Below, in pieces: positions 6,009 to 50,488 of a stretch of 64,000 nt of DNA (the first letter of the stretch is position 1; every line of letters starts with the position of its first letter). The notes beneath the pieces are model-generated. The model was not told where the DNA came from and did no database searches. It was given only the letters and a program-made list of their open reading frames with translations. Origin of the DNA: Pseudomonadota bacterium (GTDB lineage Bacteria; Desulfobacterota; Desulfobulbia; Desulfobulbales; Desulfocapsaceae). The position numbers and the translations under genes were made by a program. The stretch is from positions 62,001 to 126,000 of the forward strand of contig JAHJNL010000031.1 of assembly GCA_018820855.1 (NCBI GenBank). The letters run 5' to 3'.

Positions 6009-7856
<1,848 letters not shown>

Positions 7857-33477: not shown

Positions 33478-35388
33478 TCATGTTTGAGATAATGCCTGCT
33501 TTACAGCCTGTCCCATCTGAGCCAGGCTGTAAGGTTTCTTGACAAACTGACTTGCTCCCAGAAGAATGGTCTTTTGGACTTCATCATTCTCCGCAAAACC
33601 ACTGGCAATAAGGGCTCGCTGCTTGGGATTTATCTTCAGGATCTCTTCATATGTTTGGCGCCCGTTGATACCGGCATCCATGATCATATCAAGGACAATC
33701 AGATCCACTTCTTTCATCTTGATATAGTTGACGGCCTCTTCTCCACTGCTTACTGTATCAGTCTTATAACCAAGACTATCCAGAAGAGTGCGGGCAATCT
33801 TCTGTTGCTTTTCCTGGTCATCCACAACCAGTATATTTTCTCCGCATCCCCTGTATTGTTCAATGAAGGGTGAATCTGCCTCTTCCTCGACAGCCTTGTC
33901 GGTTATAGGAAAATAAAGGTTGAAGGTTGTACCGCCACCATCACTTTGCACATCAATAAAGCCATCATGGTCATGAACCGTGTTCCAGACTATGGCCAAT
34001 CCCAGGCCTGTTCCACTTCTTCCCATTACTTTTTTTGAATAAAACGGCTCAAATATTTTCTTCAGGCTTTTCTCTTCAATACCAGGACCGTCATCCCTGA
34101 TACTGATGACAACATAGTCGCCTGCAGCTATAAGCTCATACCCAAGAAAAGGATGATCAAGGGAGATATTTTTTGTGCTGACTGCAACCATGCCCTTTCC
34201 GTTAATCGCTTCTGCTGCATTACCGATCAGATTCATCAGGATTTTATTAATGTGAACTGCAGAGCAATAGATATTTGAAACCCTGCACTCACAATCAAGC
34301 ATGATATCAATATCTTTCAGCTGGGAGTCAAGTCCTTTTTCCTTGGTGGTGGCCACATAATTTCGTACAAGAATGTTCGCATCCCATACACGCTTTTGAG
34401 CAGTAGCACCCCTTGTTACAGTTATCAGATCCGAAACAACCGATGCTGCCTCTTGGCCTGCCTCCTGTATGAGCGTAATAATTTTTCTGTGCTCATGATT
34501 CTCACCCATTTGCATTAACAATAACTCCGGCAGCGTCACTATACCGGAGAGAATATTATTCAAATCGTGGGCAACAGAACCGGCCATTAATCCAAGAGTT
34601 TCCATTTTATTGGTAATGGCTACCTGCTTCTGCAGTTCAATCTTTTCCTGCTCAGCCTTGACCCTTTCGGTGATATCCCGAATAGCACAGACACGTACCT
34701 TCTTTCCTCGGTATTCCATATGCCTGCTGCTGGTCAAGATGGGAAATTGTTCTCCATTCTTTTTGAGACCTATGGTCTCGTGGGAACCAAAGGTCTTGTT
34801 TTTTATTCGTAACCTCACCTCAGGTAGAGAGACTGCGGGAAGAATGTTATCCAGTATCTGCTCACCGAGAAGTTCATTCTCCTGATAGCCAAACATATCA
34901 AAAAACTGTTTGTTGGCATCGAGTAACTGGCCATTGTCATGAATTACAATTCCTTCCCAGGATGCCTCTGCCATGGTCTTGGACCGTTCCTCACTGACTC
35001 TCAGGGCCTGTTCCAGACGACTGTGCGTCAGTGCTTTGCCAATGGTCTTGAAAAGCAGATCATGATCTACCGGTTTTTTCAGGTAGTCATAAGCTCCTTT
35101 TTTCAAAGCCTCTATGGCTGTTGTCACCGTAGCATTTCCGGTCAACATAATTGTTGCTGCCCCCGAATTTTCACCCTTCAGATGGTCCATAATCTGATAG
35201 CCAAGCATGTCAGGTAACTCAACATCCAGAAGCAGAAGATCAAAGACATCCTTTGTCAAAAGCTCAACCGCTTCTTCTCCACTTTGGGCACTTGTCACCA
35301 GATAGCCGGACAGACTGAGAATTTCTGCTAAACTGTCACAAAAACGGGGTTCATCATCAACGAGAAGGATTCGTGTTGAAACGTTCAT
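33478..35388 (-). CDS. Hybrid histidine kinase, REC-PAS-HK-REC
   Basis: A 636-residue soluble signalling protein without membrane segments. The N-terminal receiver (about 5-120) has D11-D12 and phosphoacceptor D55. A PAS domain spans about 135-255. The kinase core has an H-box (VAHDLNNILSGI), N-box (NLIGNAAEAING), G1 (DDGPGIEE) and G2 (GRSGTGLGLAIV). The C-terminal receiver (about 515-632) has VVDD and the phosphosite in VLDMIMDAGINGR. It is the last gene of a three-gene signalling operon, so signals may pass from or to the two proteins upstream. Confidence 0.93.
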   Translation of the reverse strand: MNVSTRILLVDDEPRFCDSLAEILSLSGYLVTSAQSGEEAVELLTKDVFDLLLLDVELPDMLGYQIMDHLKGENSGAATIMLTGNATVTTAIEALKKGAYDYLKKPVDHDLLFKTIGKALTHSRLEQALRVSEERSKTMAEASWEGIVIHDNGQLLDANKQFFDMFGYQENELLGEQILDNILPAVSLPEVRLRIKNKTFGSHETIGLKKNGEQFPILTSSRHMEYRGKKVRVCAIRDITERVKAEQEKIELQKQVAITNKMETLGLMAGSVAHDLNNILSGIVTLPELLLMQMGENHEHRKIITLIQEAGQEAASVVSDLITVTRGATAQKRVWDANILVRNYVATTKEKGLDSQLKDIDIMLDCECRVSNIYCSAVHINKILMNLIGNAAEAINGKGMVAVSTKNISLDHPFLGYELIAAGDYVVISIRDDGPGIEEKSLKKIFEPFYSKKVMGRSGTGLGLAIVWNTVHDHDGFIDVQSDGGGTTFNLYFPITDKAVEEEADSPFIEQYRGCGENILVVDDQEKQQKIARTLLDSLGYKTDTVSSGEEAVNYIKMKEVDLIVLDMIMDAGINGRQTYEEILKINPKQRALIASGFAENDEVQKTILLGASQFVKKPYSLAQMGQAVKQALSQT

Positions 35389-35474
35389 TTTGATACCTGT
35401 TGGGACTGCGTAGAAAATAAATCCAAACTGATTCTTGTCGAAATTTTCAGTGGCCGGAGCTTTAGGCTGACATA

Positions 35475-37643
35475 TCAGCTGACAGGCCTCTGGCTGATCG
35501 GTAAGACGATGATGAATCGGGTACCATCTTTCTTATCACTTTTGCATGTCACGGACCCTTTCAATTCTATGACAAGGGTACGAACAATGGAAAGGCCAAG
35601 TCCTGAATGCCCTTTTCCTTTTGTGCTGGTAAAAGGTTCAAACAGTTGAGATAGAACGTTTTCCGGCAAGCCCGGTCCGTCATCGTGGACAGTGAGCTCA
35701 ACACTATCCGAAATCTCACCTGACCCGGAAACCCCAGAAGACGCTTCTCCTGCTCTTACGCTGGTTTCGATATATATATTTCCACCCTCTGTCATTGCTT
35801 CTGCGGCATTCTTCACCAGATTGATGACGATTTGTTTTATGGCTCCCGCATCCGTCATAATGGTTGGTAACTCTGGATCGGGTTTGAAATGAACCTGAAG
35901 CTGGGAAGAGTAAAAAACGGATTTGGCAAGGATGTTCAGTAAATTGGCAAGCAGACCATTTATATCCGTCAACTCAAAGCTGTGTTTGACCGGAGTGGAA
36001 AAATCATCCAGCTGCTGAATAATCGTCGCAATACGCTTAATCTCCTCATCCAGAATAGTTAACTCTTTTATGAGTGAATCCTTTTCCGGCAGTTTCATTT
36101 CAAGGATTTTTAAGTAATTTCTGATAATACCAAGGGGATTATTGACCTCATGTACAATTTTAGCAGCTGCCATGGAAGCTGCTGCCAGACGGGCAGCTTG
36201 TATTTTCTGCGCCTGCTTTTTCTTCACCTCATCCAAATAAAGAGAAATTGCAGCCTGGTTGGCTAGCAGTTGCAAAAGTCCGGACTCTGTGGGACTGGTC
36301 AAATCATTGCCGGGGATATCGGGCAGTCCGATAACTATCACGCCAACCGCTCTGTTTTTGGCATTCATTGGCACATAGAGCATTCCTTTACCGCCAACGG
36401 CCTCAAGTAATTGAGAATCTGCCAAGTTGTGCAGATGACAATCTGCAGACTGTCGGCTAGTGATCGATTCTTTTTCCAACATTGATTTGACGAGAAGACT
36501 CGTACCCTCTGCTGCAGAAAGGGAAAGATTCTGCAGCTGCTCACTATACCGGTTAACAGTTGACCCACAGCCATACAATTTTTGCTGTTCGAAATCGTGC
36601 AGAAAAAAGAAAATCGTTTTGACGTCAAAGAGGATATTGAGAGCCTGCTCTATGGCCTTAAAAATTGCATCTCTGCTTTCTGCCTGAATCAGATTTCCTA
36701 AAAATCCAGTGAGCAAAGAGTAATTTTTGACCTGACGCAGCAGGTCAAGATCATGTTCAGTTGACTCGGGTATTTTTTCATCAGCTTGTTCTGATGGTGG
36801 TTTCACTTGAATGCCAAGACCCTTGGCGACTTCTTTTATCTCCTCCTCGACACCATTTCTCACTTCATCAATCTGGTCTGTTCCCAGGTCAAGAAGCTCG
36901 GCGCCTGCGTCATAAACGGTCTCGTAATCTTCGCCCCTCACCTGACAACATTTTTCAGCAAGATAAATAATTTTGACCAGCGGGAAAGCACCTTTGATCT
37001 GCTGCAGGGAGCCATGATGGTAGAGAATCGCATCTGCGATAAAAGAGTTCAACTGCCACTGTCTCACCAGCCAAGCTCCAGCCTCGCAGTGAGTAATTCC
37101 AATCTGCTCTTCTTCAGCACTGCAGCAAACTATTCCGTCTGTGACCAGACTCTGAACCGTCGTGCATTCTTCGGCAAAATTCATCCACAGTAACAGCTTG
37201 CCAAGGTCGTGCAGCAGGCCGGCGAGGTACGCCTCTTCGATGTTCGCATAAGCTATTTGTCGGGCGATTCTTTTGGCATAGATGGCCGTGGTTAGCGAAT
37301 CCCACCAGAAACGGCTCATTGGAAACTGATCGTTTTTCTTAAGTTTGCTGAAGACCTGTTCTACCGAGGCCGTGATTGAGAGATTTTTAATCGTATCAGC
37401 GCCAAGATAGACAACAGCCTGATTAAGGTTTGAAAATGTACTGTTTATACCAAAGCTGGCTGAGTTGACTAACGTCAGAACCCTCGAACTTATTGATGGA
37501 TCTTTAATGATGATCTGAGAAAGCTCAGAGAGATGCATGTCCTCTTTGTCACAGGTTTTAATAAGCTTCAGCAGTACCTGTGGCAGCGACGGCAGATTCT
37601 TTGATCTTTGCAGGCGAGCGTATATTTTGTTTTTATTATCCAT
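35475..37643 (-). CDS. HDOD-GAF histidine kinase
   Basis: A 722-residue cytoplasmic sensor. The HDOD domain (about 15-215) starts with the typical LPSLPQVLLKLI and has SISSRVLTLVNSASFG, with LAGLLHDLGKLLLW at about 141-154. A GAF domain lies at about 320-460. The kinase core has an H-box with the phosphorylatable histidine in KIVHEVNNPLGII (about 500), N-box NLVKNAAEAM, G1 DDGPGLPE and G2 GHSGLGLSIV. There is no receiver. It lies 5 bp after the GGDEF gene and about 85 bp before the hybrid kinase. The combination resembles deltaproteobacterial sensors; the signal is unknown. Confidence 0.93.
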   Translation of the reverse strand: MDNKNKIYARLQRSKNLPSLPQVLLKLIKTCDKEDMHLSELSQIIIKDPSISSRVLTLVNSASFGINSTFSNLNQAVVYLGADTIKNLSITASVEQVFSKLKKNDQFPMSRFWWDSLTTAIYAKRIARQIAYANIEEAYLAGLLHDLGKLLLWMNFAEECTTVQSLVTDGIVCCSAEEEQIGITHCEAGAWLVRQWQLNSFIADAILYHHGSLQQIKGAFPLVKIIYLAEKCCQVRGEDYETVYDAGAELLDLGTDQIDEVRNGVEEEIKEVAKGLGIQVKPPSEQADEKIPESTEHDLDLLRQVKNYSLLTGFLGNLIQAESRDAIFKAIEQALNILFDVKTIFFFLHDFEQQKLYGCGSTVNRYSEQLQNLSLSAAEGTSLLVKSMLEKESITSRQSADCHLHNLADSQLLEAVGGKGMLYVPMNAKNRAVGVIVIGLPDIPGNDLTSPTESGLLQLLANQAAISLYLDEVKKKQAQKIQAARLAAASMAAAKIVHEVNNPLGIIRNYLKILEMKLPEKDSLIKELTILDEEIKRIATIIQQLDDFSTPVKHSFELTDINGLLANLLNILAKSVFYSSQLQVHFKPDPELPTIMTDAGAIKQIVINLVKNAAEAMTEGGNIYIETSVRAGEASSGVSGSGEISDSVELTVHDDGPGLPENVLSQLFEPFTSTKGKGHSGLGLSIVRTLVIELKGSVTCKSDKKDGTRFIIVLPISQRPVS

Positions 37644-37648
37644 ATGGG

Positions 37649-39130
37649 TTAATTCTTCAAAGCAGCTTTAAATCCACCTTTTATGTCGAGAGGAAGATTA
37701 TAACCTGACTGGCGTTCACTTTCTTCGCAGTACGCAAAACCATTTTTTCCATGATGCTTGACGTAGTACATGGCCAAATCCGCCTTTTGGATCAACTCCT
37801 CATCAGAATCACTGTCTCCCGGCGAAAGAGCAATACCAATACTGACTCCGATTGTAATTTCATGGTGTTCTGTCTGAAATGGAATCTCAAATTCTTTTAT
37901 AATTTTTTGAGCAATTTTCTTCGTATCCATGCGGCTGGTGATCAGGGGAATCAGAATAGTAAATTCGTCTCCACTGATTCTGGCCAGTGTATCACCTTCC
38001 CGCAGGCAGGATTTTAAGCGGGCACTGAATGTCTGCAGGAGCGTATCACCAAAAGCATGGCCAAAGGAGTCATTGATTTCCTTAAATCCATCTATATCCA
38101 AAAACATGACAGCCAGGGAGTGATTGTACCGCCTGACCTGGCAAAGGGCCAAGCGAAGACGTTCCTGAAACAAGCTACGATTGGGGAGATTGGTCAGTGC
38201 ATCATGATAGAGCTGGTGATGGAATTGCTTTTCCGTTGCTTTACGTTCTGAAATATCCCTTACAACTCCATAAGTACCGAGAAAGATCCTCTCCCGACTT
38301 TCTTTGCTGTCCCTATATACTCCGATGGCATTGAGTTCAACATCCACATATAACTGCTTGTCGGAGACATGGGATGATTCATTCTTTTTCTGCTGTAAAC
38401 GGAGTTCTACATTTTTTGCAGCACGTTGCCCGGTTCGCCTTTCACTGAAAACATAACGGGACTTCTCCAGATCTTCAGGGAGAATCAGCGTGCTGTAGTG
38501 TTTGCCCAACAGTTCTTCTCTGGAAAAGCCAAGGAGCTTTTCCAGCTGTTTGTTTAAAAATGAAAAATGGCCATCTTGGTTGAGTAGGTAAATGATATCA
38601 GGAGAGTTGTTGACCATATAGCGATGCAACAACTCTGAATTCAGCAGCTGGTCATGTTTATGATGATTATTCTTGGCCACTGCCTTTCGAGTCAGCATCT
38701 TGTTAATGGAGCAGAGTAACTCATCCGGGGAAAAGGGAGTTTTGAAAAAATCATTGGCCCCCTGACGCAGTGCCCACACAGCCTTATCAAAGACGGAATC
38801 ATTGCTGAGCATGATAAGCTTGCTCAGCCTCTGCCTGCTTTTTATCTGTTTCATTGCCTGGAGGCCGCCGATCTCTATCATTTTGAGATTAAGTATTATC
38901 ACTTCGAAATGATGCTGATTCAGCAAGGCAAGGGCCTGCTGCACCGTCAGGGCAATGTGTGACTCGTAGCCATGGACAACAAGAAGTTTCTGCAGGCTGT
39001 TATTAAAGCGGCGCTCATTGCCAGCGATCAATATTTTTGCCCCATTTAGCATCAGTCTTTCTTTTGCCAGATGCGTCGCTTTTTCTTGAGCAGCCCCCTC
39101 GGAACCTGATAGCAGTTGTTTCTTTTGCAT
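37649..39130 (-). CDS. Diguanylate cyclase with degenerate receiver and PAS domain
   Basis: A 493-residue protein with a receiver-like domain (about 31-150), PAS domain (about 165-300) and GGDEF domain (about 310-475). The receiver lacks the usual acidic pair (G37-N38 in ILIAGNERR) and has N81 where the phosphoacceptor aspartate should be (IILNLKM), so it probably cannot be phosphorylated in the normal way. The GGDEF signature reads SGDEF, with an RxxD inhibitory site (REGD) five residues upstream, so c-di-GMP synthesis with product inhibition is plausible. First gene of the signalling operon. The c-di-GMP riboswitch at about 47.6 kb is a possible output. Confidence 0.9.
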   Translation of the reverse strand: MQKKQLLSGSEGAAQEKATHLAKERLMLNGAKILIAGNERRFNNSLQKLLVVHGYESHIALTVQQALALLNQHHFEVIILNLKMIEIGGLQAMKQIKSRQRLSKLIMLSNDSVFDKAVWALRQGANDFFKTPFSPDELLCSINKMLTRKAVAKNNHHKHDQLLNSELLHRYMVNNSPDIIYLLNQDGHFSFLNKQLEKLLGFSREELLGKHYSTLILPEDLEKSRYVFSERRTGQRAAKNVELRLQQKKNESSHVSDKQLYVDVELNAIGVYRDSKESRERIFLGTYGVVRDISERKATEKQFHHQLYHDALTNLPNRSLFQERLRLALCQVRRYNHSLAVMFLDIDGFKEINDSFGHAFGDTLLQTFSARLKSCLREGDTLARISGDEFTILIPLITSRMDTKKIAQKIIKEFEIPFQTEHHEITIGVSIGIALSPGDSDSDEELIQKADLAMYYVKHHGKNGFAYCEESERQSGYNLPLDIKGGFKAALKN

Positions 39131-39974: not shown

Positions 39975-40175
39975 AACAAGCTATGATTCACCCTCTGCCG
40001 CTATTTCCGTATAACGTACTACCATTTCGAAGAGTTAGTAATGGCATTCATTCTCCCCGGTGCGTGGCATACTAATTGCTTAAGGAAGACGGTATGCTTT
40101 TTTCAAAACTTCCGGCTATTCGTATAACCGGAGCGTGATTTTTCCGGCAGAACTTTAACAAAGAGGCATGTGGTC

Positions 40176-41696
40176 ATGGCAGAACAGCTTTTTGCTTCAT
40201 TTGTCCTGGATCGCAATCAAGGACTGGAGATAGCCATTGCGGCAGACAGTGTGACTGAAGCAACACCTGTTACTCAACATATCCAACCCCTTCCAGCCAG
40301 TGTTCCTTTTCTCGAAGGCCTCATGCATCTTCGTGATGCTGTTATTCCAGTCATTAATCTAAAAAAGCGATTGTGTCTCAAGACCTGTGAATATGACAAG
40401 GATGCCAAGATCGCAGTGGTCATGCTGGCAAACCAGCGATTCGGTCTCTTGTTTGACGATATCAGAGAGGTCCTGCGAATTGATGATTCCCAGCTTCTTC
40501 CGATACAACCCGCTCTGCAGTCGGAAGACTATATTATTTCTGACTTGATCACTCTGCAAAAAGAGCATCGCACCTTGGAGGTTCTTGACCTGAACCGCCT
40601 CTTCCCAAACGGCAACCTGCTCACCGACCAGACGGTCACCATCGAATCCAGAAGTGAACCTGCAAAAAGCCGGACCTATTCCAGATATGTAATCTTTTCT
40701 TCCAGCGGTCGGGAGTATGGAATTCCGGTTGAAAATGCACGGGAGCTCACTTTTCTCACTGACATTGATAGGATGTTCAAGACCGGTTCTCTGGAAGGAG
40801 CTCTGCAGCTGAGGGGGCACACCATTCCGGTCATGCGTGCAAGTGCACTCCTCAATGGTGGTGGTTCTGATGGAGAATACGGAGAATTACACCGTATCCT
40901 GATTATGTCTACAGATGCCCTTAATTTTGGCATGATCATTGATAAGATTTTGGAGATCCTCACCGTAGTCAATGAAGAGATCCTCACCATGCCCAAGAGG
41001 AAAGAGCAATCTGTGGTCGGTATTTATGAGCCGAGCTCCGGTCGTAACATTATGCTCCTGAATGTGGAAAACCTGGTGGCTTCGCAGATGAAACTGCTTC
41101 AATCCGTGTCCCGGATTACAACTGAAGGTACCAAGGAAAAAGAAACTGTGGTGGTTGAGTCCAGACACCTGATCACGGAAAACTGTTACCTGATCTTTTC
41201 CATAGGCTCAAATTTTGCCATTGAGCTCAAAGATGTTCAGGAGATCATTGAACAGGACAAACTTATGCCCGTTCCGGCAGTAAATGGTTTTGATTCCACC
41301 GTGCTCAATTTGCGTGGAAAGGTCATCCAGGTCATCAATCTGCGCCAATTCTACGGTTATCCGAAACAGGGAGATGAGGAAAACGAATCCAGACTGATTA
41401 TCTGTCGTGCCGGGAGCCAGGTTATTGCTCTGCAGGTGGATAGTATAGTCACCATATACAAACAGGAGCAGTTTTATGCGTCGCCTTCCTTGAATCCTCA
41501 ATTGCAGCAAAAAAGAGATACCCTGGATCGTCTCATTGAATTCATCAAAGAAGATACCGTCAAAACGCATGTCCTGGTTATAAATACCCATAACCTGATC
41601 AATAATCATCTGCGGCAGGAGCTATCGGCCGCTGATCAAACAGTTACTCATCAGGAAAGTTCAGAACTAAAAAACGACCTGACAATAGAAAATTGA
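40176..41696 (+). CDS. Triple CheW-domain chemotaxis coupling protein
   Basis: A 506-residue protein made of three consecutive CheW-like domains (about 5-150, 165-310 and 335-490). Each has the hydrophobic core and the 'LxGxxxLRGxxIPV(I/M)xL' type of segment: [33 protein letters not shown] and [15 protein letters not shown]. CheW domains couple chemoreceptors to CheA. There is no receiver, so it is not CheV. ATG at 40176 follows AAGAGG with good spacing; a GTG two codons earlier is too close. The chemoreceptor gene follows 16 bp downstream, so this is likely its dedicated scaffold. Confidence 0.92.
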
Positions 41697-41712
41697 AAAA
41701 GGAGGCAGTACT

Positions 41713-44700
41713 ATGACTGCAATGCAAGATAATCAAAAAAAAGTCGAACATTCTTATTTGTCCATGTTGTCAGATCCAAGCTACCTTGTTAATGACGACA
41801 TGGTTATCACCTGGGCTAACGAGGCCTTTATAAAGGGATTCAATCTCAATGCAAATCAGGTTATCGGAAAACTCACCTGCGAGGAAACCTGCCCTTCACA
41901 GCTGTGTGGCACTAAGAACTGTCCGGTGGCCAAGGCCAAGCGCCTGAAAAAGGGAGCAGAAGCAGAAGTGCTGCATATGAATAATGGTAAGGGGGCAAGC
42001 TGGTTCAAGTCCCAGGCGACACCTATGCCTGAAAATGGCAGTACCCTGGTGACCATAAACGACATCACCAAGTTCAAAGAACTTCAAGCCAAACTCCATC
42101 AGATGGAAACAGATCTGAACGTGATCCCCACTCCTATCATGGAAATTGATGATAAATTTACCATCACCTTTATGAATCCGGCCGGTGCTGCCGTGGTAGG
42201 AAAAACCCCGGACGAGGTTCTTGGCAAGAAGTGTTACGATCTCTTCAAGACACCACACTGCAAGACGGAAAAATGTGCCTGTGCCCGAGCGATGAAAACC
42301 GATTCGGTTGTCACAGAACAGACCATTGCCCGACCGGCAGACGGGGTCATTATCCCCATCAAATACACCGGTGCGCCCATTAAAGATGCCAAGGGGAACA
42401 TTACGGGGGCCTTGGAGTACATCCTTGATGTGACAGAAGAGGTACAGCAAAAGCAGGCTGCCGATGAGAAGATTAACAACCTCAATACCATCCCTACTCC
42501 CATCATGTCCATAGACACGGACTTCAATGTCACCTTTATGAATCCTGCCGGTGCTGCCGTGGTAGGAAAAACCCCGGACGAGGTTCTTGGCAAGAAGTGT
42601 TACGATCTCTTCAAGACACCACACTGCAAGACGGAAAAATGTGCCTGTGCCCGAGCGATGAAAACCGATTCGGTGGTCACAGAACAGACCATTGCCAGGC
42701 CGGCGGAAGGTGTAGTCGTTCCCATTAAATACACCGGTTCTCCCATTAAAGATGCCAAGGGCAATATCAAGGGTGCTCTGGAATACATCCTTGATGTCAC
42801 AGAAGAGGCGCAACAGAAGCAAGTGGCGGATGAAAAGATTAACAACCTCAACACCATCCCCACTCCCATCATGTCCATAGACACCAATTTCAGTATCACC
42901 TTCATGAATCCGGCTGGAGCTGCTGTGGTAGGGATGACCCCTGATGAAGTACTCGGCAGGAAGTGTTATGATCTCTTCAAGACACCGCACTGCAAGACGG
43001 AAAAATGTGCCTGTGCCCGAGCGATGAAAACCGATTCGGTGGTCACAGAACAGACCATTGCCAGGCCGGCGGAGGGAGTTGTTATCCCCATCAAGTATAC
43101 CGGCTCTCCCATCAAAGATGCAAAGGGCAATATTAAAGGTGCCCTGGAATACATTCTCGATATCACTGAGGAAGCGAAACAAAAACAGGACGCAGATGAG
43201 AAAATTAACAACCTTAATTCCATCCCCACTCCCATCATGTCCGTTGATACAGAGTTTAATGTTACCTTTATGAACCCTGCTGGTGCGAAGGTTGTGAACC
43301 TTACTCCGGATGAAGCCATAGGTAAAAAATGCTATGATCTCTTCAAAACTTCGCACTGCATGACTGAGAAATGTGCGGTGGGACGTGCCATGCGCGAAGA
43401 CAGAGTCATCAGCGAAGAGACCATAGCCCGCCCCCAGGACGGTATGATCGTCCCCATCAAATATACGGGAGCGCCCATCAAGGATGCCAAGGGCAATATC
43501 AAGGGTGCTTTGGAATTTATCCTTGATATCACAGCAGAGACCAAACAACGGCAAGAGGCCAATGAGAAAATCGAAAATCTCAATGCTATCCCCAACCCCA
43601 TTTATGCCGTGGACTTGAACCATACCATCACCTATATCAACCCGGCCGGAGCAGCCATGGCGGGAATGACTGTGGAAGAGGCCATGGGGAAAAGGTGTTC
43701 AACACTTTTTGGTACAGATCGCTGTAATACCTCTCAGTGTGGAATTCAGCGGGCCATTGGCGGTAATACGACTATCACCGAACAGACCATTGCCCATATC
43801 AATGGCAAAGATATCCCTGTCAAAATCACCAGCGTTTCCATCAAAGATGCCAAGGGCAATGTCAAAGGTGGACTGGAATATATGGTCGATGTGACCGCTG
43901 AGGCAAAGGTGGAAAACCTGATCAACACTGCTTCAGCAGAGGTTGAGTCTCTTGTTTTCGATTCTCTGGTAAAAATGGATGAAGCAACCGGTAATATGGA
44001 TGCCATGAGCCTGCTCATTGAAAAGGAGGTCACACTCCTGGATAACTCCTCCACCACAGTGGATAAAATGCTCGACTTTGCCAGAGAAATGGTCAACCTC
44101 ACAACCAAGTCAAGTGAAATGGCCATGGGTGTTGCCAAAGATGCCGAGCAAGGGAAAAAGGCCGGATCTGATGCAGAGAAAAAGATGGTAGCCATAAACG
44201 AATCCATGGAAGGATCCAATCAAATGGTGGCCAATCTGGTGAGTCAACTGGAAAAAATAGGTGGATTCGTCGATATCATTAAAGAGATCGCCTCTCAGAC
44301 CAACCTGCTTGCCTTTAATGCGGCAATTGAAGCAGCGCGTGCCGGTGACGCAGGTCGAGGCTTTGCCGTGGTTGCTGATGAGATCCGTAAACTGGCAGAA
44401 AATTCTTCCAGGTCTGCAGTGGACATTGCCAACATCGTGAAAAAGGTTGAACACGAATCAAAAGAGACCATCGTTGCCATGAAAGACGGCATGAAGATGC
44501 TGGGAGACGGTAGTGAGGTCATCGAAACTGCCCTGGAGGCCATGGAGAAAATCTCTACCGGCATTGTGACCATCTCCCACGCTGTCGATGAACTGGATAA
44601 GAAGGCGGATGTACTCAGTGACCACGGGCAGGATGTGAAAGAGCAGCTCGGCAGTGTGGTCAGCTCTTCTCAGGAAAACCAGAAATCCACCAAGGCAATT

Positions 44701-44787
44701 ATCTTCTCCATCGACAGTACCATCGAAGCACTGAAAAAACTTGAGTCTTCCAGTAAAGAACTGAACAAGGCTGTCAGTGAGATGTAA
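41713..44787 (+). CDS. Cytoplasmic chemoreceptor with six PAS modules, five in exact 122-residue repeats
   Basis: A 1024-residue methyl-accepting chemotaxis protein without membrane helices. After a divergent first PAS module (about 15-130), five modules repeat every 122 residues (the PAG motif falls at residues 157, 279, 401, 523 and 645). Each has a cysteine pattern C-x8-C-x4-C ([15 protein letters not shown]), with a further Cys two residues on in the first three; the first module has a related [15 protein letters not shown]. The C-terminal signalling domain (about 745-1024) has the hairpin tip [23 protein letters not shown] at 41713 follows AAGGAGG. The cysteines may hold a metal or redox centre. 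Confidence 0.94.
42121..43910 (+). repeat. Tandem 366-bp direct repeats inside the chemoreceptor gene
   Basis: Five in-frame units of 366 bp encode PAS modules 2 to 6. Units 1 and 2 share 128 identical bases (42181-42308 against 42547-42674), and unit 3 is also close, while units 4 and 5 are more diverged. This gradient points to recent duplication or gene conversion in the first three units. It is not a CRISPR array because the repeats are coding and contiguous. Confidence 0.92.
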
Positions 44788-44799
44788 GGGATAATAGTT

Positions 44800-44831
44800 C
44801 TGCGGCCGAATTGTTCTCAATTCGGCCGCAG
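44800..44831 (+). terminator. Hairpin between chemoreceptor and acetyltransferase genes
   Basis: A perfect 14-bp stem, CTGCGGCCGAATTG (44800-44813) with CAATTCGGCCGCAG (44818-44831), and a TTCT loop lie 12 bp after the chemoreceptor stop. There is no T-tract, so full termination is uncertain; it may only reduce read-through into the downstream gene pair. Confidence 0.6.
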
Positions 44832-44850
44832 CAATGACGAGTGGCAGATT

Positions 44851-45417
44851 ATGAGCTTCTTCAGCGACAAACTCTTTACCCGTAGATTGGCCCTGATTAA
44901 AATTAAGGAAAGTGACCTTCCGGTCATTGTGGACTGGAGTCAATCGGAAACAGCTTGTGGTGCATATCTGAGCCCTGAGAAGTATGATATGGAAAAGATG
45001 AGGGGGCAGATCCGGTCCGGTGTTTTTTGGAAGGACCTGGAAAAAATGTTTCTCGTTACCCTGAAACAGGATGGTCGACCGATCGGTACCATACACTACT
45101 GGCAACCCACAGGAGGGCAGAATAGAGTAACCATGGCTTTGAAAGTAGCTCTCCCGGAAGAAAGAGGAAAAGGATATGGAACTGAAATTCAAAAATTTCT
45201 CATCATGCATATTCTTGAGCGACATCCGGTGGAAGCCATCGAGATGTATACTGATATCAACAACAGAAGCCAACAGCGTTGCCTGCAAAAACTGGGCTTT
45301 GAACTCATCGAGTCCCTGATCTATGCTGACCAGCAGAAAGAAAGAATAGGCCATCTTTTTCGGCTGACTACCGAACGGTATTCCTCTCACCCCATTTATC
45401 AATTTCATTATGAGTAG
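44851..45417 (+). CDS. GNAT-family N-acetyltransferase
   Basis: A 188-residue GCN5-related acetyltransferase, RimJ/RimL-like. The acetyl-CoA loop is visible as ALPEERGKGYGTEIQKFL (about 106-123, R-x-x-G-x-G/A type), followed by the NNRSQQRCLQKLGF region near the C-terminus (about 139-152). ATG at 44851 has only a weak ribosome-binding site. Its stop lies 8 bases inside the following deacetylase-family gene, which resembles the pairing of acetyltransferase and deacetylase in acuA/acuC. The substrate is unknown; the chemotaxis proteins upstream are possible targets only by context. Confidence 0.85.
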   Translation: MSFFSDKLFTRRLALIKIKESDLPVIVDWSQSETACGAYLSPEKYDMEKMRGQIRSGVFWKDLEKMFLVTLKQDGRPIGTIHYWQPTGGQNRVTMALKVALPEERGKGYGTEIQKFLIMHILERHPVEAIEMYTDINNRSQQRCLQKLGFELIESLIYADQQKERIGHLFRLTTERYSSHPIYQFHYE

Positions 45418-46438
45418 TCAGCTGGGCCTGGTTTTTGATAACAGGTATCTTCACCATTCTATCCCCACTCCGTCGTCAGAAAATCCAGAACGAGTACGCA
45501 GTCTGTATAACCACCTGCAACAACAGAACAAGACCTCTCTCAGGCATATTGCCCCTCGAGAAGCGCTCAATAGTGAAATATGCATGGCTCATTCGCCGTT
45601 CTATGTGAAACAGTTGAGAGAGCACGTTGTAAAGGCTGACCCTTACTCATATGATCGCGACACCTATCTGATGGAAGACAGCCTTCCCACAGCCCGACTG
45701 GCTGCAGGCGGTTGTTTCAATCTCGCAGATACGATTATGGCAGGAGAGCTTGATTATGGGTTTGCCCTGGTTCGTCCACCAGGTCATCATGCCACAGGGG
45801 GGCGAGGTATGGGGTTCTGTATCTTTAACAATATTGCTCTGACGGCTGAATACCTGCGTCGACAGCACGGCCTTCGACGTATCCTGATCCTCGATTTTGA
45901 TGTTCACCATGCCAATGGTACCCAGGAAATATTTTACGATACCAATGAAGTCCTGGTCTGCTCCATCCACCAGAGTGGTATCTTTCCCTTCAGCGGCTTC
46001 CCAGAAGAATTGGGGAGCGAGGAAGGGCTGGGCTATACGGTCAATATTCCAGTTCATGCACAGTTTGGTGATTCTGAATACACCTATCTTCTCGGTCGCT
46101 TGCTGCAGGGCCTGGTGGAACAATATCTGCCCCAGTTTATCCTGGTCTCGGCGGGTTTTGATGGTCATATCGATGATACAATCAGTGGTACGCTCCTCAG
46201 TACCGAATGGTTTGGCCTGATCACCCATATTCTGCGGCGTCATGCCTCTGAGAGTAGCGAAAACCACCTGCTTTACATCATGGAAGGAGGCTACAACCCC
46301 ATTTCCCTCGAGGCTTCGGTACTCTCAACCATTGATGCCCTGACTCAGAAAGAATTTATCTGTCCCGGAATATTTCCCACCCCACGGGCGGATAAGATTC
46401 TGCACAGCCACCCACTCCACCGATACTGGACAATTTAG
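45410..46438 (+). CDS. Histone deacetylase-family (AcuC/HDAC-like) amidohydrolase
   Basis: A 342-residue zinc-dependent deacetylase-fold protein. Catalytic motifs are present: RPPGHHA (the His-His pair, about 123-129), ILDFDVHHANGTQ (zinc-binding Asp and His, about 163-175), SAGFDGH (zinc-binding Asp, about 246-252) and MEGGYN where most relatives have LEGGYD or similar. Substrates in the family include acetyl-lysine and acetylpolyamines. ATG at 45410 lies within the 3' end of the acetyltransferase gene (8-base overlap), so the two are translated together. Confidence 0.92.
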   Translation: MSSQLGLVFDNRYLHHSIPTPSSENPERVRSLYNHLQQQNKTSLRHIAPREALNSEICMAHSPFYVKQLREHVVKADPYSYDRDTYLMEDSLPTARLAAGGCFNLADTIMAGELDYGFALVRPPGHHATGGRGMGFCIFNNIALTAEYLRRQHGLRRILILDFDVHHANGTQEIFYDTNEVLVCSIHQSGIFPFSGFPEELGSEEGLGYTVNIPVHAQFGDSEYTYLLGRLLQGLVEQYLPQFILVSAGFDGHIDDTISGTLLSTEWFGLITHILRRHASESSENHLLYIMEGGYNPISLEASVLSTIDALTQKEFICPGIFPTPRADKILHSHPLHRYWTI

Positions 46439-48199: not shown

Positions 48200-50488
48200 T
48201 TATTTTTTGTTATCTATGAATTGAAGCAGCTGTTGACCAATTGGGTTGTCCGGAGTTACGGTTATCATCTGTTTTGCAATGTCTCTGGCTTGAGATAATT
48301 TACCCTTTGCAAGATAGAACTGAGCGATTGCCTGTAAGTAGTTCATGTTGCCGGGATCAAGTGCAATGGTTCGTTTCAGGGCTCTTTCCGCCTCGTTGTC
48401 CTGATGAAGAAAGGCAAGGAGCTGGCCGAGATTATAATGTGCTCTGGCATTTTCCGGCATGTCGGCCGCCGCCTTGGCCAGATGTTTTGCCGCTTCTTCA
48501 TATTGTCTCTGTTCAGAGAGGAGAAGACCGAGGGAATAGTGGACATCGGCCAGGTCAGGGTTTACGGCCAGTGCTTTGCGTAACTGTTCTTCAGCAAGGT
48601 TGTTTTTTCCCTGTCTGTTATAGAGGATAGCGAGATTGGTCCGGGCTGTGTGAAAATCAGGATCAATGGCAACCGCTTTTGTGAAATGCTCCTCTGCGTT
48701 ATCCAGTTGTCCCTGGTAGCTGGCAAGTGTGCCAAGATTGAGTCTGGATGCAGCAAAATCGGCAGAATAAAGTGAAGTCTCCCTGAATTCCTCCAAGGTC
48801 CTGGTAAATGGAGCTTGCCATCGTTTATCAAGCTGCTCAGCAGGGATACGTGTCAGTGCTCTGGCTGCCTCTATCCGCACCCCTTTTATTGGATCGTCAA
48901 GGAGTGGTCCAACCATCTGTATTGTCTTTTCGGGAGAAAGGTGAGGCAAGTTTATGAGTGCAGTCCTCCTGATAATGGCCTCATCGCTCTCCAGGGCCTG
49001 TCGGAATGCAGCAATGACTTCATCGCCCTGGTACCTGCCCAGCAGGGAGATGGCTGTTGCCCGGACAAGGGTGGACGCCAGGTTGTCGGAGATAATACGG
49101 AGCAACTCCTCCCTGGCTTGTGGCTTGCCTGCGCGGGCAGCGCTGAAGGGACTTCCGTAGTGGTACTTTTTCTTGCTGCCGTACCATTTCCTGGTGTATT
49201 CGGCAGACCATTCATTCGTCTTGTCACCATGACACCGGTTGCAGGCATTAGGCGTGCCCAGTTCAATACTAAGATCCGGGCGTGGAATACGAATGGAGTG
49301 GTCTGGGCGGTAATCGTTACCCATATATATCCGGCCAGGCATGTGACACTGGATACACTGTGCACCGGTGCCTACTGCAAAAAGGACTTCTCCCTCAACG
49401 GTTCGGACAGGTTCTCCTTCCATGCCCTCATTTTTATGAAAATGGTGATCTTTAGTGTCATAAAGAGAGGCCTGGTGGCATTGCAGGCAGAGAGCATTTC
49501 CTTCCTGGTGCAGCTTGATTGTATGGACATTATGGCAGTCAGAACAGCGTACGTCGTTTGCGTACATTTTGGCTTGTAGAAAGGAACCGTATACATACAC
49601 TTCGTCAAGAATCTGGCCGTCAGCGTGATACAATCCCTCCTCCAGCAATCTTGGCATCTCGGTGTCAAGGAGGTCCTGCGGCAGATGAGCATAGTCTCCC
49701 AGCATTGAGCGTCTGGAATGGCATGGCGCACAGAGATCTACCTGCTGTTGGTTATTTATTGCAGACGTCTGTACCAGCAGAGCGTCGTTATCTGCTGGAC
49801 GTGCCATTTCCGGTAATTCGGCCCAGGCCAGATGTTTGGAGCCGGGTCCGTGACAGGCCTCGCAGCCCACACTGATTTCTGCCCATTTTGTTTCATAGGT
49901 GTCCGTGTCGGGTTTATAGCTTTTTTGCAGTTCGGTGGAATGACAGTCCGCACACATGGAGTTCCAATTCTGGCCCTGGTTGGTCCAGTAGATCCATTCT
50001 GCAGGGTCGAGATCAAGATCCGGATAGAGGTGGAACCATTTTTTCTTCACTGCGTCCCAGGCAATGGGCAGGCACTGTAATCGGCCTCCCGGGAAAGGGA
50101 TCAGGTACTGCTGTAAGGGATACCAGCCAAAGGTGTGGGTGATTTCAAATTCTGCCATCTCGCCTTTGGGTCCGCGTGTGTACACAAAAAAACGGTTATC
50201 CTTACGATAAAAACGGGATTCAATTCCGTGTTTTTCAAAAATCACGTCGTTGAAGTTGCCGAGTACCGTTTCTTCACTGGCAACAGTCATGGACTTGGCA
50301 TGATGTGATCCCTGCCACTCTTCATATGCCTTTTTATGACATTTGGCACAGGCCTCACTGCCGATAAATCCTGCTGCTTGAACTTCTTCCTGTGTGGCCT
50401 GTCTGTTCTTTTGCTTAAGCACGTATAGGGGGAGAGAAAGGACAATGATCAGTGTGGCAATCACGCCGGTAGTCTTCCAGTATTGCAT
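48200..50488 (-). CDS. Octaheme c-type cytochrome with HEAT and TPR C-terminus
   Basis: A 762-residue exported or membrane-anchored cytochrome (N-terminal helix about 7-24). Eight CxxCH motifs are seen in order: CAKCH, CADCH, CEACH, CAPCH, CSDCH, CLQCH, CIQCH and CNRCH, all within about residues 45-420. The order resembles cytochrome c-554/octaheme families. A HEAT-like stretch (about 450-560) and four to five TPRs (about 590-755, with AEEHFTKAVAIDPDFHTART-type units) follow. It lies 4 bp after the Rieske gene and takes the place of cytochrome c1 in this operon. It probably accepts electrons in the periplasm. Confidence 0.9.
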   Translation of the reverse strand: MQYWKTTGVIATLIIVLSLPLYVLKQKNRQATQEEVQAAGFIGSEACAKCHKKAYEEWQGSHHAKSMTVASEETVLGNFNDVIFEKHGIESRFYRKDNRFFVYTRGPKGEMAEFEITHTFGWYPLQQYLIPFPGGRLQCLPIAWDAVKKKWFHLYPDLDLDPAEWIYWTNQGQNWNSMCADCHSTELQKSYKPDTDTYETKWAEISVGCEACHGPGSKHLAWAELPEMARPADNDALLVQTSAINNQQQVDLCAPCHSRRSMLGDYAHLPQDLLDTEMPRLLEEGLYHADGQILDEVYVYGSFLQAKMYANDVRCSDCHNVHTIKLHQEGNALCLQCHQASLYDTKDHHFHKNEGMEGEPVRTVEGEVLFAVGTGAQCIQCHMPGRIYMGNDYRPDHSIRIPRPDLSIELGTPNACNRCHGDKTNEWSAEYTRKWYGSKKKYHYGSPFSAARAGKPQAREELLRIISDNLASTLVRATAISLLGRYQGDEVIAAFRQALESDEAIIRRTALINLPHLSPEKTIQMVGPLLDDPIKGVRIEAARALTRIPAEQLDKRWQAPFTRTLEEFRETSLYSADFAASRLNLGTLASYQGQLDNAEEHFTKAVAIDPDFHTARTNLAILYNRQGKNNLAEEQLRKALAVNPDLADVHYSLGLLLSEQRQYEEAAKHLAKAAADMPENARAHYNLGQLLAFLHQDNEAERALKRTIALDPGNMNYLQAIAQFYLAKGKLSQARDIAKQMITVTPDNPIGQQLLQFIDNKK

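Follow-up and report, generated by a model that had tools for sequence, protein, structure and literature searches.

What does a soluble chemoreceptor read with a string of PAS modules that each carry the same three cysteines, and with which proteins does it share this task? The receptor is encoded at 41713..44787 (+ strand) of the window, the stretch of 64,000 nucleotides that was analysed here. Its 1024 residues comprise six PAS modules followed by an MCP signalling domain (PF00015; 44116..44649, + strand, residues 802-979), with no membrane segment indicated. In a Pfam scan, PF00015 scored 126.5 bits against a cut-off of 34.6, and hydropathy in 19-residue windows reached a maximum of only 1.09, in agreement with the original prediction of a cytoplasmic chemoreceptor. 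The same scan matched PAS_4 (5e-95) and PAS_9 in six stretches each. The five PAS modules first proposed do recur with an exact period of 122 residues (anchors at residues 135, 257, 379, 501 and 623, 0-based), and the gene contains a 366-bp tandem array that is picked up by TRF, but the total number of modules is six. The repeats had also been called exact, which holds for their period but not for their sequences, as modules 1-4 share 71-93% protein and 67-86% DNA identity. The ungapped identity of module 5 (29-31%) is too low a figure because this module is one residue shorter. An open reading frame on the opposite strand (41896-43623, 575 aa) was put down to the repeats of the coding strand, of which it would be a shadow, since the protein on the + strand has domain matches and orthologues.

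All six modules lie on the + strand and contain the motif C-x8-C-x4-C, as had been foreseen for modules 1-5. These are module 1 (42118..42483; motif at 42232-42276, C174/183/188), module 2 (42484..42849; 42598-42642, C296/305/310), module 3 (42850..43215; 42964-43008, C418/427/432), module 4 (43216..43581; 43330-43374, C540/549/554) and the C-terminal module 5 (43582..43944; 43696-43740, C662/671/676). The fourth cysteine announced for the first three repeats was found two residues past the motif (C190, C312 and C434), and module 4 lacks it. The divergent N-terminal module 0 (41752..42117) had been credited with a related set of cysteines. It does have cysteines, but this wording understated the likeness, as their spacing is identical (C56, C65 and C70 at 41878-41922), with an extra C60.

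Conserved neighbours, on which the original prediction was silent, lie outside 41713-44787. The receptor is the second of four genes on the + strand, of which the first encodes a protein of three CheW domains (CheW3; 40170..41696, PF01584 in three stretches), the third a GNAT-family acetyltransferase (44851..45417; PF13302 3e-15, PF00583 8e-10) and the fourth an HDAC-family (zinc amidohydrolase) deacetylase (45410..46438; PF00850 2.5e-88, 296.7 bits), with an overlap of 8 bp between the third and fourth genes. We counted these neighbours at 29 loci (L002 and L058-L085, several of which are two halves of one fragmented genome) as same-strand tblastn matches within the locus at E <= 1e-10. CheW3 was found upstream of the receptor on the same strand at 20 of the 20 loci with room for it, GNAT downstream at 23 of 23, and HDAC at 22 of 22. 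The unit is kept across several families, and its cultured carriers include Desulfofustis glycolicus DSM 9705 and Desulfobacter vibrioformis DSM 8776 (loci L064 and L066). The paralogue in the same genome (L002) also has these neighbours, and within this genome a protein of about 520 aa with three CheW domains occurs only in the two array units. Five relatives with one or two modules (L086-L090) were left out of these counts, and no match to CheW3, GNAT or HDAC was found beside them. The neighbours are also present in a metagenome-assembled genome named Halochromatium (L068), on one contig and as divergent copies (CheW3 is 27% identical). No other comparable match was found among 274 genomes of its class, and a binning error could account for its place among the Gammaproteobacteria. 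A scan for promoters and terminators gave results at chance level.

GNAT and the array also co-occur tightly beyond these loci. Array modules were found in 33 of 144 relatives, and GNAT in 32 of these 33 versus none of the 111 others, in a comparison that was read by eye and assumes that unlisted genomes were the same draw in both searches. For a sample of 345 genomes of the phylum the prediction was fixed beforehand, with the line for array genomes set at an E-value of 1e-45 before GNAT was searched for. GNAT was found in all five array genomes and nowhere else. The two genomes next below the line, G964 (2.4e-43, two modules in one protein) and G936 (4.6e-40, at least three in one protein), both lacked GNAT.

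From its profile match and its active-site motifs, the fourth gene product is predicted to be a classical zinc deacetylase (HDAC family), with PPGHH (HH) and D-x-D-x-HH in 24 of 24 sequences, SAG[FY]D in 23 of 24 (one gap) and EGGY in 22 of 24 (two gaps). It matches many PDB chains of the HDAC family, and the best single-domain match is 8szt ('Histone deacetylase domain-containing protein', 190.7 bits). HDAC6 heads the list only by summing two domains (149.5 + 172.2 bits), scores are about 175 bits for bacterial amidohydrolases and about 150 for the polyamine deacetylase HDAC10, and no subclass can be assigned from these PDB scores. The NCBIfam search gave no match for HDAC and, for GNAT, only weak matches far below the cut-off, none of them to a model named AcuA; no PDB chain matched GNAT at E <= 0.01. 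As GNAT has no PDB or NCBIfam assignment and the HDAC subclass cannot be assigned, the substrate of the pair could be a small molecule. It is a real possibility, though on the doubtful side, that the pair has a metabolite or some other enzyme as its target (a polyamine, an amino sugar or, as in acuABC, acetyl-CoA synthetase) and that only co-expression links it to the receptor. Besides the ranking of 8szt and a GNAT substrate that cannot be read from the sequence, a published precedent speaks for such a target: a GNAT/HDAC pair regulates AcsA, according to an excerpt of PMC8556138. Against it, every genome in which GNAT was found also has array modules, a restriction that a general metabolic enzyme would not need, and the HDAC has Ile (ddtisg) at the position of the Leu in HDAC6 domain 2 (gdplgg). 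In the polyamine-type HDAC10, this position is a Glu. We prefer the reading in which the two enzymes would work against each other on lysines of the receptor complex, one adding acetyl groups and the other removing them.

A second question is whether the number of modules matters. The original prediction suggested that a signal could be counted or averaged over the modules. Arrays of relatives contain from four modules (L056, a complete array) to eight, which disfavours a fixed module count; sizes and positional counts come from 24 chosen loci, with L056 outside that set. The nearest relative of an internal module lies inside the same protein in 32 of 79 cases, whereas first (24/24) and last (23/24) modules are closest to modules at their own position in other proteins. 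By this comparison, the middle modules are partly homogenised. In the window, a stretch of module 1 that covers its cysteine motif (42178..42327, + strand) is near-identical to module 2 (42544-42693), with 97-100% DNA identity in 30-nt bins versus 67-100% in the other bins. The longest identical run is 128 nt (permutation p about 0.0005 for this one of 28 pairs tested, which is as low as 2000 shuffles can give), and the stretch is probably a gene-conversion tract. All this would fit a neutral history, possible but doubtful, in which modules are gained and made alike by unequal crossing-over and gene conversion, without functional consequence, and fewer modules would do. However, the array loci examined include no complete array with fewer than four modules. 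Codon differences among modules 1-3 are also mostly synonymous (26-41 versus 9-15 that change the residue), which suggests that the extra modules are kept under protein-sequence selection.

The cysteines are conserved among orthologues, and the original prediction stands on this point: of 225 distinct full-length modules (at least 105 aa) taken from orthologues and close relatives, 223 have the motif, 17 of the initial 242 having been left out as too short. In one of the two exceptions (L054), the motif falls on unread bases. The other, the N-terminal module of L068, is a real loss, and the motif is thus not needed by every module. In a wider set of 90 loci and 137 distinct modules, array modules included, the 125 modules above 50 bits comprise 112 with the exact motif, 11 with a spacing variant and two with neither, although the profile, itself made from motif-bearing modules, partly accounts for the large share of exact motifs at high scores. 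The fourth cysteine, which forms a C-x-C pair, depends on position (76/79 internal, 8/24 penultimate, 7/24 last and 0/24 first modules). As it is not universal, a classical four-cysteine cluster is not general. A different four-cysteine form, like that of C56/C60/C65/C70, is found in 32 of 34 N-terminal-type modules selected by the pattern GTK-x-C. Within the conserved C-x-T-x-x-C of internal-type modules, the Thr is kept in 180 of 184.

The motif is not special to the array receptor, an option that we ruled out by finding exact and variant motifs elsewhere in the same genome. Here, a sigma-54 regulator, a GGDEF protein (diguanylate cyclase) and kinases also carry three-cysteine PAS domains. 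Methanolobus has close relatives. The exact motif is present in four of the 134 non-array PAS domains of the genome, compared with a mean of 0.045 and a maximum of 2 in 1000 shuffles. Two further cysteines are found in 17 of the 22 non-array PAS domains that have the first cysteine (C1), versus 7 of the 112 that lack it (Fisher p 5e-12, a guide only, as the domains compared are related to each other). The domains for this test were found with TIGR00229, which avoids the bias of a motif-bearing profile and which missed both N-terminal array modules. As C1 predicts two more cysteines, the set behaves as a unit despite changing loop lengths, and metal or redox binding by it is plausible.

The AlphaFold2 model of module 3 is a confident PAS fold (mean pLDDT 95.5) that matches 5iu1_A (VIA-align Z 14.2, rmsd 2.4, 105 aligned) as well as other PAS chains. 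Following the PAS convention for helix names, C1 opens the E-alpha turn, C2 lies in the E-F loop and C3 directly precedes F-alpha, positions from which the three cysteines could cluster in space. The full-length model, built with 12 sequences, was poor (pLDDT 55, pTM 0.24) and lends no structural support to any arrangement of the modules in the receptor. The best profile matches among solved chains are of the LOV type, and C1 aligns with the cysteine of their GrNCrflq stretch, which we take to be the light-adduct cysteine. The LOV motif is G-x-N-C-R-F-L-Q, and at the aligned place the module reads GKKCYDLF. A LOV photoreceptor was therefore rejected.

The cysteines might also work without a cofactor, forming disulphides or persulphides as in the cytoplasmic PAS of ArcB and reading the thiol or polysulphide redox state. 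We regard this as unlikely. It is favoured by the relatives, whose names are mostly those of sulphate reducers and sulphur-cycle bacteria, and by the extra C-x-C cysteine of most internal modules, which would add a redox partner. ArcB provides the precedent of two PAS cysteines, according to an excerpt of PMC4601167; RdmS of Methanosarcina was set aside as another, as the claim of a redox-dependent autokinase has been withdrawn according to an excerpt of PMC11784639. On the other hand, three fixed cysteines, the conserved C-x-T-x-x-C and their presence as a set look more like a group of ligands than like a pair. Improbable, finally, is a zinc site in which the three cysteines and a His directly before C2 brace the structure or sense zinc or oxidants as in CZB-type chemoreceptors or the WalK PAS, as although this His is kept in 161 of 184 internal-type modules and zinc in a cytoplasmic PAS is published for WalK (PMC6624279, from an excerpt), it is missing from the first and last modules of the window protein and from many distant relatives with all three cysteines, and no CZB domain was matched in the receptor (Pfam scan, E <= 0.01).

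We favour, tentatively and at somewhat less than even odds, a redox or Fe-S-type array of cysteine-PAS modules with a CheW adaptor of its own for signalling and a dedicated cycle of acetylation and deacetylation for adjustment. The four genes (40170-46438) would be co-transcribed as one chemosensory unit. In each module, the three cysteines at the E-alpha/F-alpha edge would act together as one site and would most likely bind a cofactor through their thiolates and leave it an open ligand position. This cofactor, probably an Fe-S cluster, could report the internal redox state, oxygen or NO, or reduced sulphur. A change at one or more modules would travel down the PAS string to the MCP hairpin and from there, through the triple-CheW adaptor, to CheA; the presence of CheW3 upstream at every locus with room is suggestive of such signalling through CheA/CheW. 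Chemoreceptor adaptation is known as methylation. Here, an adjustment that depends on acetyl-CoA would be a second one, beside methylation. That the receptor's own lysine acetyltransferase and deacetylase set the gain of a multi-site cysteine-cofactor sensor, as a new form of adaptation that complements or replaces CheR/CheB methylation, is a bolder proposal and rather unlikely. In an excerpt of a review (PMC8556138), the link between acetylation and chemotaxis is CheY.

If this proposal is true, an acetyl-CoA-driven cycle of writer and eraser is dedicated to this chemoreceptor. The unit offers a concrete system for testing acetylation as control at the receptor level. Three-cysteine PAS domains are a sizeable class of sensors in the sampled bacteria and archaea. 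Our literature search, which covered few subscription papers and is weak evidence of absence, found no name for them and no description of the C-x8-C-x4-C PAS motif or of an operon of chemoreceptor, GNAT and HDAC. As a single module is small and confidently modelled, its cofactor could help to annotate the kinases, cyclases and regulators that carry the motif.

Among known systems, soluble PAS-containing MCPs share with this receptor the PAS input, the MCP signalling domain and the lack of an indicated membrane segment, whereas the unit described here has six near-repeat modules with a fixed three-cysteine motif, its own triple CheW, and GNAT and HDAC. CZB is a domain of cytoplasmic chemoreceptors such as TlpD, with a proposed role in metal or oxidant sensing. 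These are likewise soluble receptors for which such sensing is proposed, but they differ by the CZB domain itself. LOV domains share the position of C1 but neither the surrounding motif nor the two further cysteines. In the acuABC operon of Bacillus, as described in an excerpt of PMC8556138, an acetyltransferase and a zinc deacetylase stand together as they do here, but here no acsA is among the four genes and the pair is joined to a chemoreceptor and CheW. ArcB and NreB of Staphylococcus, both taken from an excerpt of PMC4601167, resemble our receptor in having cysteines in a cytoplasmic PAS. ArcB is a quinone-linked sensor kinase with two redox cysteines. NreB is a [4Fe-4S] sensor with four cysteines in a kinase, whereas the array modules have three near-universal cysteines, a fourth that depends on position, a putative cofactor and an MCP output.

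The cytoplasmic chemoreceptor encoded at 41713-44787 (+ strand) is 1024 residues long; Pfam assigns six stretches of it to PAS and detects a single MCP signalling domain. The original prediction held that there are five PAS modules; the anchors of modules 1-5 are indeed spaced exactly 122 residues apart, but a sixth PAS domain, module 0, precedes them. The C-x8-C-x4-C motif proposed for each module is present in all six, and modules 1-3 each carry a fourth cysteine, as predicted. The description of a merely related cysteine set in the divergent first module was an understatement, as its spacing is exactly C-x8-C-x4-C (C56/C65/C70, with an extra C60). Residue identity among modules 1-4 is 71-93%, and module 5 is more distant from these and one residue shorter. 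The highest hydropathy of any 19-residue stretch is 1.09, and therefore no membrane segment is indicated, in agreement with the predicted cytoplasmic location.

An AlphaFold2 model of module 3, built with 81 aligned modules (pLDDT 95.5), falls among PAS/LOV structures in Foldseek and VIA-align comparisons. The first cysteine of the motif (C1, model residue 41) opens a short helix (E-alpha by convention), the second (C2, residue 50) lies in the loop after this helix and the third (C3, residue 55) directly ahead of the next helix. C1 aligns to the cysteine of the LOV GrNCrflq stretch, but the array modules do not retain this motif, which argues against a LOV photoreceptor.

A scan of named genomes yielded 33 loci with relatives. 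By record title, most belong to Desulfocapsa, Desulfocapsaceae, Desulfobulbaceae and other sulphate-reducer groups, including Desulfofustis glycolicus, Desulfobacter vibrioformis and Desulfopila aestuarii. One is from a Halochromatium MAG (L068), which contains the full unit described below and has an N-terminal module (6010-6348 of that locus) without the three-cysteine motif. Single- or two-module relatives were found in two Methanolobus genomes and three deltaproteobacterial MAGs. The cysteines are kept among orthologues, contrary to the refuting outcome named in the original prediction: 242 distinct modules were collected from the array loci and near relatives, and the motif is present in 223 of the 225 that are full length. 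Across 24 chosen loci, arrays contain six (13 loci), seven (6), five (3) or eight modules (2); a further locus, L056, contains a complete four-module array.

Terminal modules are closest to modules at the equivalent position in other proteins (first modules 24/24, last modules 23/24), whereas the nearest relative of internal modules (n=79) is in the same protein for 32 and is an internal module of another protein for 44. This means that the array expands and is partly homogenised in its middle, with both ends preserved. Modules 1 and 2 have a 128-nt run of identical DNA in common (overall DNA identity 86%) and modules 2 and 3 one of 86 nt; the permutation p of about 0.0005 for each is the lowest possible value and is uncorrected for the 28 pairs tested. 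Near-identical DNA that spans the cysteine motif, resembling a conversion tract, links 42178-42327 in module 1 to 42544-42693 in module 2. Codon differences among modules 1-3 are mostly synonymous (26-41 versus 9-15 residue-changing). A full-length paralogue of the receptor (83% identity) with the same neighbours lies on another contig of this genome; its modules 2 and 3 share 95% identity with each other, but only 74-81% with modules 1-3 of the window receptor. Two similar three-cysteine PAS modules also occur in other proteins (loci L260, L261, L262, L263, L270 and L272), and repetition of this domain may have arisen more than once.

The motif itself extends beyond the array. This genome has 144 PAS matches (TIGR00229), and the exact motif is found in 14, namely ten array modules and four domains of other proteins. 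Among the 134 non-array matches, 22 have a cysteine at the C1 site; at least two further cysteines lie within 22 residues in 17 of these 22, compared to 7 of the 112 without C1 (Fisher p 5e-12). The motif family C-x8..10-C-x2..4-C occurs in 11 of the 134, against a shuffle mean of 0.47 (maximum 3). The three cysteines are treated as one site mainly because they are present as a set despite changing loop length. Ten proteins with exact or variant motifs carried histidine-kinase domains (6), GGDEF (1), a sigma-54 domain (1), HAMP and PAS (1) or PAS only (1, judged on a partial stretch). The spacing variants C-x8-C-x3-C and C-x10-C-x2-C occur in PAS domains of this genome at loci L173, L147, L125, L179, L174 and L167, whose proteins include kinases and a sigma-54 regulator. 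Profile matches to the module, which are not motif counts, were found in 202/345 genomes of the home phylum and 5/274 of a gammaproteobacterial sample (both E <= 1e-15), and in 86/246 of an archaeal phylum sample (E <= 1e-12). Among 125 modules above 50 bits in the loci examined, a count biased by a profile that was itself built from motif-bearing modules, 112 had the exact motif, 11 a variant and 2 neither. The array thus belongs to a wider class of three-cysteine PAS domains, though the finding as first given holds.

The receptor gene is part of a four-gene unit on the + strand. A protein with three CheW domains (CheW3; 40170-41696) ends 16 bp ahead of it, and a GNAT acetyltransferase (44851-45417) and an HDAC-family enzyme (45410-46438), whose genes overlap by 8 bp, lie downstream. 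The window also contains an adjoining signalling cluster at 33478-39130 (- strand; two histidine-kinase-family matches and a receiver-PAS-GGDEF protein) and, at 48200-50488 (- strand), a 762-residue protein that, judged by eye, has many C-x-x-C-H motifs and a repeat-like C-terminal part, probably a multihaem cytochrome. The entire unit is duplicated in this genome (L002; contig C101, 1-6069) with 71-83% identity per protein. Neighbours were counted at 29 loci (L002, L058-L085): CheW3 is present in 20/20 loci that extend 700 bp or more upstream, the GNAT in 23/23 with at least 800 bp downstream and the HDAC in 22/22 with at least 1300 bp downstream. None of the three was found at the single- or two-module relatives (L086-L090). 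The 14 CheW matches in this genome comprise six in two triple-CheW proteins, two stand-alone CheW proteins and six in a pair of longer ORFs (669 and 973 residues; three match rows each), which are presumably CheA.

Array modules were found at E < 1e-60 in 33 of 144 relatives, the next best match being about 1e-34. The GNAT is present in 32 of these 33, the exception being G049, whose array runs near a contig end, and in 0/111 relatives without array modules. As read off the match lists, 31 of 33 GNAT places share a contig with array modules (exceptions in genomes G080 and G057). One GNAT orthologue (G038:C305:1349-1903) has an internal TAA, which either marks it as a pseudogene or reflects misassembly of a fragmented genome. 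Of the 345 genomes in the phylum sample, only G000 (this genome), G117, G803, G829 and G974 had the GNAT, exactly as predicted beforehand. As the first two were already known, there are three new hits, all from one genus, and most of the weight of this result lies in the 340 negatives. The GNAT was not found in G964, with two matching modules in one protein, or G936, with at least three; both have weaker E-values than the array genomes.

The acetyl-CoA motif of GNATs, [QR]xxGx[GA], is present in the GNAT of 23/23 loci; NCBIfam and PDB searches gave no informative closer relative. The HDAC active-site motifs HH, D-x-D-x-HH, SAG[FY]D and EGGY are present across orthologues, and the deacetylase is likely an active HDAC-family enzyme. 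Of the five HDAC-family matches in this genome, two lie in the two array units. By whole-sequence score, two-domain HDAC6 ranks first among PDB chains; for single domains, 8szt scores highest (190.7 bits), with HDAC6 and bacterial amidohydrolases next (about 175 bits) and HDAC10 after them (about 150). These scores point to no single subclass, and the substrate could be a small molecule.

The anatomy, conservation and linkage of the unit are shown, and this conserved chemoreceptor/acetylation unit is a more interesting result than the cysteine motif itself. The three cysteines of each module may form one thiolate site, whose cofactor is most likely of the Fe-S type, as three cysteines are fixed while a fourth ligand, where present, varies. 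Most carriers named among the relatives are anaerobes. Signalling from MCP via CheW to CheA is established for the chemoreceptor family, and here the signal would run from the MCP domain via CheW3 to CheA. As the GNAT is found only with the array, the GNAT/HDAC pair may have the receptor complex as its target. It is rather unlikely, if conceivable, that the unit represents a new form of chemoreceptor control. One paper notes nine PAS domains in one cluster whose cysteine motif is a putative Fe-S binding site, with NreB cited (PMC10468136). Related literature includes PMC13104023, PMC9918477, PMC4601167 and PMC11784639, and related titles are PMC6624279, PMC6949291, PMC13001251, PMC10579534 and PMC3964821. 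The nearest precedents for such an action of the GNAT/HDAC pair are the acetylation of CheY and the AcuA/AcuC pair (PMC8556138).
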